A stretch of DNA of 23,924 nt from a virus: IMG/VR virus record IMGVR_UViG_3300034110_001240, positions 1 through 23,924 of that record. One strand, written 5' to 3'. The notes beneath the pieces were generated by a model that searched no databases, was not told the DNA's origin, and saw nothing but the letters and a program-made list of their open reading frames with translations. The translations under genes and the position numbers were made by a program. Of the stretch, positions 213 through 3,133 are shown in pieces; position 1 is the first letter of the stretch; each line of letters opens with the position of its first letter.

Positions 213-443
213 TCAAGCCCAGATGACCGTCTCCGTATTGATCTCCGCCACTTCGGTAGCGTTGAACTGCCGCTGGCGGTGAAGGTCGTCTCGCATGTCC
301 GTAAAGTTGATTTTCTTGATAGTTAGTTCTTTCAGAACCAAGCCCGAAATTCTATAAATGCCGCAGTCCGAACAATCGATAAGTTCGCCGCCATGAGCTT
401 CTTCCGCTACCTTCGCCTCGAGGCCGCATAGATAACATTTCAT
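213..443 (-). CDS. Small protein with two CxxC pairs (probable zinc ribbon), 76 aa
   Basis: The start at 443 is supported by an AGGAG ribosome-binding site eight bases upstream; the gene ends at TGA (213-215). The N-terminal half carries two CxxC pairs: CYLC at residues 3-6 and CSDC at about 24-27, roughly 18 residues apart. That spacing fits a single zinc ribbon. The segment after it (GIYRISGLVLKEL) would form a short strand and helix. The C-terminal half is polar with no recognisable motif. Small zinc-ribbon proteins of this kind are common in Pseudomonas accessory regions and may bind nucleic acid or a protein partner, but no function can be assigned. It is transcribed leftward, like the next gene to the right, from which a terminator separates it. 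Confidence 0.65.
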   Translation of the reverse strand: MKCYLCGLEAKVAEEAHGGELIDCSDCGIYRISGLVLKELTIKKINFTDMRDDLHRQRQFNATEVAEINTETVIWA

Positions 444-1012: not shown

Positions 1013-1059
1013 TGGTCGGGACGGAGTGATTCGAACACTCGACCCCTAGCACCCCATGC
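1013..1059 (-). other. Probable prophage attachment site (att core within the tRNA-Pro 3' half)
   Basis: The conserved stretch runs from the anticodon loop (GCATGGGGTGC, 1049-1059) to the CCA end at 1013. GCTAG on the 3' side of the anticodon stem would pair perfectly with CTAGC, but the window has CTTGC on the 5' side, so the tRNA-like match breaks next to the anticodon loop. Many tyrosine integrases that use tRNA genes exchange strands at the anticodon loop, which fits this break. A second copy of about 47 bp, within an intact tRNA-Pro, is predicted at the other prophage end, outside the window. Confidence 0.6.
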
Positions 1060-1081
1060 AAGCGGACTGATCTACAGCCCG
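1013..1081 (-). pseudogene. Degenerate tRNA-Pro(GGG): intact 3' half, broken 5' half
   Basis: Read on the minus strand, this is a near-perfect tRNA 3' half: the anticodon loop ATGGGGT (anticodon GGG), a T arm GAGTG-TTCGAAT-CACTC, the acceptor strand CGTCCCG, discriminator A and an encoded CCA. The 5' half does not match. The acceptor strand reads CGGGCTG instead of the complementary CGGGACG, the D arm is missing about eight bases, and the anticodon stem CTTGC faces GCTAG with a central T-T mismatch. It should not fold into a working tRNA. The simplest reading is a displaced tRNA 3' end left by site-specific integration, with random phage sequence now standing where the tRNA 5' half would be. 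The alternative, a decayed phage-borne tRNA, is less likely because the 3' half is so well preserved and the terminator follows. Confidence 0.75.
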
Positions 1082-1269: not shown

Positions 1270-1285
1270 CTGTATATGCAAACAG
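1270..1285 (+). promoter_or_regulatory. LexA (SOS) box
   Basis: CTGTATATGCAAACAG matches the LexA consensus CTG-N10-CAG with an AT-rich spacer. The flanks extend the match to TACTG...CAGTG. It ends 19 bases before the GTG start of the coiled-coil gene, so a bound LexA would cover the likely -10 element (TGTATA or TATATG, embedded in the box). It predicts that the downstream two-gene unit with SRAP is induced by DNA damage. Confidence 0.82.
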
Positions 1286-1304
1286 TGTTCAGTAAGGCGC
1301 CACC

Positions 1305-1670
1305 GTGGACCCCCTCTATATAGAAGACACCGACGATTGGCTCGGCAACCCGACCCCGCTCGAAACCTGCCGACACCAGCTCAGGATGTACGAGAACGAA
1401 TTCGAAGCGCTCACCCTCAAGCTTGATCGAGCGTTGGCGAATATCGAAGGCCTGGTCAGAGACAATGACGCACTCAGGCAGGAGAGGGATTCTCTCAAGG
1501 CCAAGCTTCAGCACGCCGAAGGGGCTTTGCTGAGCGAGAGGCGAAGATTCGCCGACGTCGAGCACAACAGAAACCATCTGTTCAATGAAAACCAGCGCCT
1601 GTTCAGAGAAGCTCGAGATCGTGAGGAATTAGCATGTCATTGCGAATGCTGCGCCGAAAAAGGTTTGTGA
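1305..1670 (+). CDS. Coiled-coil protein with a Cys/His-rich C-terminus, first gene of the SOS cassette, 121 aa
   Basis: The start is GTG at 1305, with AAGG eight bases upstream, and the stop is TGA at 1668-1670. Residues 1-20 are acidic (DPLYIEDTDDWLG). From about residue 25 to 105 a long heptad-like helix follows, rich in L, E, R, K and N (for example LTLKLDRALANIEGLVRDND), predicted to be a coiled coil. The last dozen residues hold a tight CHCECC cluster that could bind a metal. There is no signal peptide or membrane segment. It lies between the LexA box and the SRAP gene, with a 54-base gap to the latter, so the two are probably co-transcribed and SOS-induced. A role together with SRAP in damage handling is an inference from this arrangement; no named family is recognised. 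Confidence 0.75.
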   Translation: MDPLYIEDTDDWLGNPTPLETCRHQLRMYENEFEALTLKLDRALANIEGLVRDNDALRQERDSLKAKLQHAEGALLSERRRFADVEHNRNHLFNENQRLFREARDREELACHCECCAEKGL

Positions 1671-1724
1671 CGAAGCCAGCCCTTATGGGTCTACGCTGAA
1701 TCAGATCCAGCCGAGGGTATGGCA

Positions 1725-2420
1725 ATGTGCGGACGACTCTCGCAATACAGCGGCATTCACGACTTCGTGGCGGCGCTCAGCATGCCGAACGCGTTCATCA
1801 ACTCGACCGGCGAGCAACCCTTTGAGCGGTACAACGCCGCGCCGACCACTCAGCTCGCCCTCTTCCACCAGGAAGGCGAGTTTCTACACGCCGACATGGT
1901 TCGCTGGGGATGGCGCCCGCACTGGGCAAAAGACCGCGCTGCTCCAATCAATGCGCGCGTGGAGAAAGTCGCACATGGCCCGTTCTTCCGCGCGACCTGG
2001 CCGCACCGGGCAATCATCGCGATCAATAACTGGTTCGAGTGGGTCGATGAAGGCGGGCCAAAGAAGCAGCCCTACCTTATTCGGCACCGCGATCAGTCCC
2101 CAATCCTCTGCGCCGCGATCGGCCAATACCCGAATGAGGAGCATGAGCCCGGCGAGCACGACGGCTTTGTGATCATCACCGCCGACAGCGCCGGCGGCAT
2201 GGTCGATGTCCACGACCGGCGCCCGGTCGTTCTTCCGCCAGAGCTTGCCCGGGAATGGCTGGACCCGGCCACGCCGAAAGAACGCGCCGAACAAATGGTG
2301 CTGCATGAGGGCGAGCCATCAGAGGCGTTCGAATGGTTCAAGGTCGACCGCGCCGTGGGCAATGTCCGCAATCAGGGCCCCGACCTTATCAAGCCGATTA
2401 AAGAAAACAGCCTGTTCTAA
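1725..2420 (+). CDS. SOS response-associated peptidase (SRAP/HMCES/YedK family), 231 aa
   Basis: The SRAP family covalently captures abasic sites in single-stranded DNA through a thiazolidine on the N-terminal Cys, and has autoproteolytic activity. The key residues are visible: Cys2 in MCGRLSQYSG; the Asn of PINARVEK (about residue 78); the Glu of NWFEWVDE (about 105-110); and the His of MVDVHDRRPVVL (about 165). A start at 1719 would give MAMCGR and bury the catalytic Cys. The ATG at 1725 puts Cys at position 2 and is nine bases from GAGGGT, so 1725 is chosen. Length fits the family (about 220-240 aa). The gene follows a LexA-controlled coiled-coil gene and converges on the phage lysis end, its stop overlapping the opposing gene's stop. 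This suggests a phage-borne SOS accessory. Confidence 0.92.
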   Translation: MCGRLSQYSGIHDFVAALSMPNAFINSTGEQPFERYNAAPTTQLALFHQEGEFLHADMVRWGWRPHWAKDRAAPINARVEKVAHGPFFRATWPHRAIIAINNWFEWVDEGGPKKQPYLIRHRDQSPILCAAIGQYPNEEHEPGEHDGFVIITADSAGGMVDVHDRRPVVLPPELAREWLDPATPKERAEQMVLHEGEPSEAFEWFKVDRAVGNVRNQGPDLIKPIKENSLF

Positions 2421-2647
2421 GCCGAACTCAGCGCGCGCAGGCGGTTCTCTGTCGCGTTGTCGAAGATCACGTAGAGCTTGTCGATGGTGGATTCGGTTAA
2501 GGCGCGCGCCGACTCCAGGCCATAGACGAAACCCTCAGCCCTAGCGCCTGCCTTGGCTGCGATAATCATCGAATCGGCACGCGCAATCTCAGCCAGAAGC
2601 TTGTCTGCAGCGCGCTCAATGTTCGGGCTCAGTTCTACACCTTCCAT
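2417..2647 (-). CDS. Hypothetical 76-aa protein at the end of the late operon
   Basis: The start at 2647 has a GGAGG ribosome-binding site seven bases upstream. The TAG stop (2417-2419) overlaps the convergent SRAP stop. The product is mostly alpha-helical and Ala-rich (ERAADKLLAEIARADSMIIA; AGFVYGLESARALTES-like segments) and has no clear transmembrane span. It therefore does not look like a holin, and there is no lipobox or signal peptide to suggest a spanin. It sits 48 bases after the endolysin gene and is probably the last gene of the late transcript. A lysis-related role is suggested only by position. Confidence 0.65.
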   Translation of the reverse strand: MEGVELSPNIERAADKLLAEIARADSMIIAAKAGARAEGFVYGLESARALTESTIDKLYVIFDNATENRLRALSSA

Positions 2648-2695: not shown

Positions 2696-3118
2696 TCAGG
2701 GCACATCCTTGAAGAAAACGTGGTGACCGAGCTTCAGCGTCTGCTTGGCCTTCGCCGCCCAGGCCGGCGCCTTGATGCTGGTGGCGTAGTAGTGGGTGGC
2801 CCCGCCGGTGGGATCCGGCACCTTGCCGTCGATCACTTGGTCAGCCGCTACCCGGCACTGCGCCAGCTCGCGGAAAGGGATCTCCTTCACGCCGATCAGG
2901 AACTGGTAGTTCGGGTCGGTCTTGTTCCAGCAGCTGAACTGCCACGGCTTTTGGCACACGCCCGCGTAACCTTCACCCCACCACGACTTTTCCTTTCCAT
3001 CGAACACGCGGTTGCGGATCGTCCAAGCCACGGCGATCTGCCCCGCCGTTCCTTCGCCGCGAGCTTCGCCCCAGATTGTGCGGGCGAGGATGTCGCGGTC
3101 TTTCTCGGTTACTGGCAT
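2696..3118 (-). CDS. Endolysin, SleB-type cell wall hydrolase, 140 aa
   Basis: This is a compact single-domain protein of the SleB/Hydrolase_2 family, which cleaves peptidoglycan glycan strands. Diagnostic features are the N-terminal DRDILARTIWGEARGEG with the catalytic Glu of GEARGE, AVAWTIRNRV, the aromatic/Cys stretch GVCQKPWQFSCWN, and the C-terminal GATHYYATSIKAPAWA-x-K block. There is no signal peptide or SAR helix, so export would need a holin, which I do not see nearby. ATG at 3118 (GGAG seven bases upstream) is preferred over the adjacent GTG at 3121. A terminator stands between this gene and the tail fibre chaperone upstream, so expression may need read-through or its own promoter. 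Confidence 0.9.
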   Translation of the reverse strand: MPVTEKDRDILARTIWGEARGEGTAGQIAVAWTIRNRVFDGKEKSWWGEGYAGVCQKPWQFSCWNKTDPNYQFLIGVKEIPFRELAQCRVAADQVIDGKVPDPTGGATHYYATSIKAPAWAAKAKQTLKLGHHVFFKDVP

Positions 3119-3133
3119 CACTTTTCTCCAGGC

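Follow-up and report, generated by a model that had tools for sequence, protein, structure and literature searches.

A putative LexA-controlled operon of a coiled-coil gene and an optional SRAP gene beside the attachment site of Pseudomonas temperate phages

In a single virus record of 23,924 bases, analysed at its full length and called here the window, we found beside the phage attachment site a LexA box followed by a gene for a coiled-coil protein (CC) and by a gene of the SRAP family. Taken as a whole, the explanation that we consider likely is that of a LexA-repressed accessory operon of the moron type, carried by temperate phages of Pseudomonas and switched by DNA damage, in which CC would be an adaptor and SRAP a protective protein. 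Prophage genes under LexA and SRAP genes in phages are known separately, and in the open-access literature we found no report combining the two. The operon would hold a fixed place, with attP on one side and the end of the late operon on the other; host LexA bound to the box would keep it silent in the lysogen, and the RecA-driven cleavage of LexA would switch it on directly, with the loss of the phage repressor being neither awaited nor needed. The first and constant product, CC, carrying a conserved short N-terminal motif on a long coiled coil, would then work as a dimeric adaptor for a host protein during SOS, and the second and optional product, SRAP, would cross-link reversibly to abasic sites of single-stranded DNA, thus protecting damaged forks of the phage or of the host. 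The sequence supports the box, the genes, their position, their order, their conservation and the intact SRAP, and the binding and repression by LexA, the SOS induction independent of the phage repressor, the activity of SRAP, and the partner and oligomeric state of CC are all predicted. The features of the region are as follows:

1013–1060, minus strand: attachment-site core, the 3' part of tRNA-Pro(GGG), at the junction between host DNA (1–1012) and prophage, recognised by comparison with relatives
1191–1203, no strand assigned: inverted repeat CGGC-GTCCT-GCCG, upstream of the box
1270–1285, plus strand: LexA box CTGTATATGCAAACAG
1305–1670, plus strand: CC gene, GTG start, encoding an acidic coiled-coil protein of 121 residues with the N-terminal motif EDTDDWLGxPTPLE
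1725–2420, plus strand: SRAP gene (YedK/HMCES family, PF02586); an open reading frame from 1719 adds two residues before MCGR
2417–2647, minus strand: open reading frame of 76 residues (phrog_36962, function unassigned), convergent with SRAP and the probable end of the cassette
2696–3121, minus strand: cell-wall hydrolase or endolysin (PF07486, 2.6e-19; endolysin in PHROG), at the end of the late operon and outside the cassette

The box matches at 13 of 16 positions the sequence CTGTATATATATACAG, which we take to be the LexA consensus. It is the sole site in the window with three or fewer mismatches, 100 dinucleotide-shuffled versions of the window contained no such site, and it ends 19 bases ahead of the GTG at 1305, so that the box placed by the preliminary description just before the coiled-coil gene stands. 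A simple scan upstream recognised no sigma-70 promoter, and a recA-like layout, with the box as the 17-base spacer, would make the mRNA almost leaderless, which counts against the explanation that we prefer. The inverted repeat farther upstream recurs in 55 of 161 loci, 49–83 bases before the box, when only the loop GTCCT is counted (other variants, such as GTTCT, exist outside this number), and in phage PseuP_222 it bears a compensating pair change, CGAC/GTCG. As a separate observation, five loci (L004, L006, L049, L051 and L081) have a second LexA-like palindrome, CTGTATTTTCCTACAG (or TTTCCC), about 129–130 bases before CC and upstream of the main box.

The conservation of the box was followed in relatives collected by two scans and from named phages: the viral-contig scan with the CC protein gave 82 relatives (best 80 of 82 used), the genome-contig scan with a CC alignment gave 92 (best 80 of 92 used, every one of these with a Pseudomonas title), and four named phage records matching CC were added to these 160. 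A CTG-N10-CAG box with at least 11 of 16 matches stands ahead of CC in all 76 viral loci considered (from the best 80 of 82, omitting the four with fewer than 40 bases upstream), in 77 of 80 genome loci (best 80 of 92) and in all four phage records, which makes 157 of the 160 loci with enough upstream DNA, with matches ranging from 11 to 14 of 16; it is missing in three genome loci, L101, L120 and L132. Among 3,220 shuffled upstream regions, any CTG-N10-CAG box arose in 2.6% and one of at least 11/16 quality in 0.12%. The spacings come from start codons chosen by a script, some of them (such as 13) reflecting an earlier in-frame start, and the spacing of 101 at L091 is a mis-picked start.

Given that these loci are mutually related, two further checks were made. 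In the first, loci more than 85% alike, with CC shorter than 95 residues or with fewer than 130 bases upstream were set aside (a filter that removed two of the three box-less loci, L101 and L132), and the remaining 44 were aligned without anchoring on the box; TACTGTA...CAG came out as the most conserved stretch, kept in 43 of the 44. In the second, 34 of 40 weak distant CC matches had a box of at least 11/16 no more than 200 bases upstream, and six did not; these 40 were hand-picked from the weaker matches of the genus survey before their upstream DNA was seen, several of them are shortened CC genes or match in the coiled coil only, and at least L253 is the same gene as a member of the first set (L164). 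Of the 21 CTGTATATNNANACAG sites in five genomes, five stand no more than 40 bases ahead of a CC gene and a sixth about 230 bases ahead of one, and the reversed control pattern has no site in the same five genomes. The site is therefore a CTG-N10-CAG sequence just before a gene and conserved in its relatives, as in an operator of the LexA regulon, and the direct LexA control that had been proposed gains strong support, as a prediction, from this conservation across relatives. A side case is L101, where CC is shortened to 80 residues, the box is lost, and a full SRAP still lies 136 bases downstream; gene and box appear to have decayed together.

The flanking bases CCTCGATTA are conserved as well in the 44-locus alignment and could be read by a second DNA-binding protein, as expected if the box served another regulator, such as the phage repressor, and its LexA likeness were a coincidence of similar palindromes. 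We hold this to be very improbable, because the CTG and CAG ends are kept while the centre of the box varies, and because in six of six Pseudomonas genomes the main lexA gene has two boxes of 12–13/16 and recA has one of 12–13/16, and the CC boxes match the consensus as closely as these host operators do.

Regarding the first gene of our proposed LexA-repressed operon, its codons differ from those of 104 relatives mostly at the third position (2884 differences against 1673 and 1464 at the others, in an ungapped comparison), as expected for a real gene. The protein has a pI of 5.1, 72% of its heptad a/d positions between residues 18 and 118 are hydrophobic, and its AlphaFold model is a single helix over these same residues (mean pLDDT 86.9), with residues 1–9 below 50. 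The acidic N-terminal stretch bears the motif, and the C-terminus varies among relatives. Because an acidic motif precedes a coiled coil whose C-terminus varies, we suggest an adaptor, likely dimeric, that would bind a host protein during SOS, and we offer this as a guess. Membership in a named coiled-coil family (HALZ, YabA, ZapB, EzrA, SMC or DndD) was considered and rejected, the best Pfam score being 21.8 bits against a cut-off of 28.1. The matches in Pfam, NCBIfam and PHROG were weak and mostly of generic coiled-coil similarity, with all NCBIfam scores far below the cut-off; PADLOC returned DndD only (0.0048, over the coiled coil), and the PDB gave nothing specific by sequence or by fold, the fold search having zero matches.

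CC is present in 125 of 398 sampled Pseudomonas genomes and in three of 99 genomes of a family-level sample, all three already within the genus sample. Five of 50,697 named phage records contain it, four found by the window CC and one by a distant CC, and two other distant members had no match among these records; a plasmid search found no CC. The annotated copies in phage records carry labels such as “minor tail protein” and “DarA”, which seem mistaken. One 62-kb record (IMGVR_UViG_3300046492_000606) holds two boxed CC genes, L071 and L078, and is probably two prophages in tandem.

The prophage runs rightwards from the attachment core, with its late genes pointing left, and the junction at 1013–1060 is supported by the near-relative record G001, which has a 53-base direct repeat at both ends (1007–1059 and the far end), the whole tRNA-Pro(GGG) at the far-end repeat, and an integrase at 56918–57421, just inside the far end. 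Most prophage records likewise have the integrase at the end far from CC, and from the G001 repeat and far-end integrase it follows that cassette and integrase would flank attP in the circular phage. The window itself, a record of 23,924 bases, shows one of its att sites only. The proposed order agrees with two named phage records, PseuP_222 and VW-6S, in which the integrase is followed by CC and then by lysis and tail genes that run convergently; PseuP_222 has SRAP after CC, and VW-6S has one extra open reading frame between integrase and CC. The prophage-edge location described at the outset is thus confirmed as a location beside attP, with the LexA box and the CC start lying 210–245 bases inside the tRNA-Pro(GGG) attachment site. 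The exact 48-base core occurs in 23 of 182 loci, and ARAGORN found a tRNA in seven of the 40 distant CC loci. A tRNA scan of the window found no complete tRNA, since only a 3' part is present and was recognised by comparison, and an Rfam scan of its first 4 kb found no RNA family. On the host side, positions 213–443 (minus strand) hold an open reading frame of 76 residues resembling a LysW-like zinc ribbon (PF21344, 2.7e-05, just below the cut-off).

The second gene belongs to the SRAP family by a wide margin (PF02586, 7.5e-47, 160 bits against a cut-off of 27.1). The alignment of its product with YedK is full-length and retains Cys2, the INARVE Asn, the NWFEW Glu and the DVHDR His, which we take to be the catalytic residues of YedK; the intact active site of the preliminary description is thus borne out, with a correction of the gene start. 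The start at 1719 reads MAMCGR, and the ATG at 1725 reads MCGR, which leaves the cysteine at position 2 and has a GAGG 8 bases ahead, so the gene is better read as 1725–2420. Among 29 relatives the codon differences are 1425 synonymous against 252 non-synonymous, indicating strong purifying selection, and the protein probably shields abasic sites in single-stranded DNA. Between the CC stop and the SRAP start there are 54 bases, in which no terminator-like site was found, and the two genes are predicted to be co-transcribed.

The pairing of both genes is looser than the small CC/SRAP module at first envisaged. Behind CC, a full SRAP lies no farther than about 290 bases away in 26 of 80 viral loci (best 80 of 82), 17 of 80 genome loci (best 80 of 92) and one of four phage loci, a total of 44 of 164, or about a quarter, and a partial SRAP lies behind CC in two viral, three genome and one phage loci. 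Among the SRAP-less loci that were looked at (26 of 81 loci were inspected), many have CC alone against the late operon. On a CC tree of 143 rows, SRAP presence changes at least 25 times, compared with no fewer than 27 changes, and 33.5 on average, in 100 label shuffles, a rough figure because the tree is a quick search over 90 columns, leaving out L120 and CC shorter than 100 residues; two pairs of CC identical over 60 residues differ in SRAP presence. SRAP is therefore patchy across CC relatives, with CC itself having been the search bait. Since CC and box are kept in most relatives without SRAP, the constant unit is box plus CC, with SRAP being optional and not half of a fixed pair.

As side observations, L021 and L026 retain only the first 22–24 SRAP codons behind CC, which look like signs of recent loss, and L021 then has an opposite-strand open reading frame of 545 residues; in L035, L086 and L154, SRAP lies 2.1–2.2 kb from CC, in L035 among open reading frames at the end of the late region.

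When we searched for recurrent plus-strand open reading frames starting within about 400 bases of CC, using a crude filter, SRAP was the sole recurrent second gene (47 open reading frames in 165 loci, partial copies included). The largest downstream cluster (48 open reading frames) was rejected as cargo and read as the antisense of a spanin gene. The pair recurs elsewhere, as the preliminary description expected, and it does so even in PseuP_222, whose CC is 38% identical to that of the window; moreover, a cysteine-containing CC tail (C..C.EK) coincides with a full SRAP in 26 of 29 loci. All of this would suit a single dedicated DNA-damage complex in which CC recruits or regulates SRAP, and yet we find such a complex quite unlikely, given that most CC relatives lack SRAP, that F116, TC7, Presto, Fyn8 and other phages have SRAP without CC, and that the tail is not required, SRAP being present in 19 of the 136 loci lacking it.

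A LexA box ahead of SRAP is also found with another first gene. In the P. aeruginosa phages F116, Presto and Fyn8 (L166, L168 and L169), a LexA-like box (CTGTATATTCATACAG in F116 and Presto, CTGGATATTCATACAG in Fyn8) stands at the start of an integrase-adjacent operon that closes with SRAP, and lies 36 bases before the MSYSDP start of a phrog_8717 gene of 171 residues. Such a box heads the SRAP operon in four of 13 phage SRAP loci, all of Pseudomonas; LexA control is thus no general trait of phage SRAP and looks like a Pseudomonas habit, presumably reached with two different first genes. Because the slot beside attP holds different first genes in different phages, a host-directed accessory role is favoured over a core phage function.

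These F116-type phages, with their unrelated gene in the CC slot, also bear on the reading of CC as an induction switch. Antirepressors such as Tum and those of the Gifsy phages offer the analogy: CC is a small phage protein, its LexA box stands at a near-fixed spacing, and it is more constant than SRAP, so it might be a LexA-controlled antirepressor that inactivates the repressor of its own or of another prophage, with SRAP as a passenger. We regard this role as unlikely, both for the unrelated gene in that slot and because 25 of 30 CC records also code for an S24-peptidase-domain protein, a candidate self-cleaving repressor (five of the 30 had no match), which makes an antirepressor less probable.

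If our preferred reading of a damage-switched accessory operon is true, an unnamed prophage gene, present in about a third of the sampled Pseudomonas genomes, is switched by the host SOS response independently of the phage repressor, and lysogens would then answer DNA damage differently from non-lysogens. More tentatively, and as a proposal that we ourselves hold to be somewhat doubtful, CC may found a large, undescribed family of SOS-switched Pseudomonas phage effectors, host-directed adaptors on the attP side in prophages of about a third of species, with SRAP gained repeatedly as a means against breakage of abasic, single-stranded DNA in the induced phage or the surviving lysogen. If the preferred reading holds, the cassette would also allow the benefit of SRAP to phages to be tested directly.

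In the open-access literature we found no report of a LexA-boxed phage SRAP in Pseudomonas, nor of the CC family. A 2013 paper (PMC3765255) drew attention to the connection of SRAP with SOS and to its occurrence in temperate phages, and proposed that it acts as a damage sensor and phage lysis switch. A study on a Marinobacter phage proposes that SRAP protects phage replication (PMC8424206), so that the idea of an abasic-site shield for phage SRAP is already published in general form (PMC8424206; related, PMC3765255).

Compared with other phage SRAP loci, the window shares with F116, Presto and Fyn8 the LexA-like box, a first gene, SRAP and the integrase-side position, and differs in which first gene it has, since phrog_8717 is unrelated to CC. 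In TC7, pAN, PHB10, S1, Smp131 and CF418P1, SRAP is near the integrase as it is here, without a LexA box being found within 1.6 kb upstream of SRAP, and PMC8424206 places SRAP near the integrase in Marinobacter phage PS3 too. Boxes lie 637 bases upstream in the Erwinia phage and 1,518 bases upstream in Gifsy-2, with no obvious link to SRAP, and the SPBc2 locus has none, a Bacillus-type box included. Among phages, a place beside attP is thus common for SRAP. With respect to YedK and HMCES, the SRAP of the window is a full-length homologue with the same active-site residues and, unlike them, is phage-borne and has a LexA box and a coiled-coil gene ahead of it. The LexA-controlled antirepressors of temperate phages, 186 Tum and those of Gifsy, resemble CC as small phage genes under host LexA, a control that is predicted for CC, and their setting differs from that of CC in that most CC records encode an S24-domain protein. 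Finally, phages carry morons or lysogenic-conversion genes in the position of the lambda b region, and our cassette, lying between attP and the late operon, convergent with the latter and with its own regulatory site, has the same attP-side arrangement; morons are expressed steadily in the lysogen, whereas this cassette is apparently switched by LexA.
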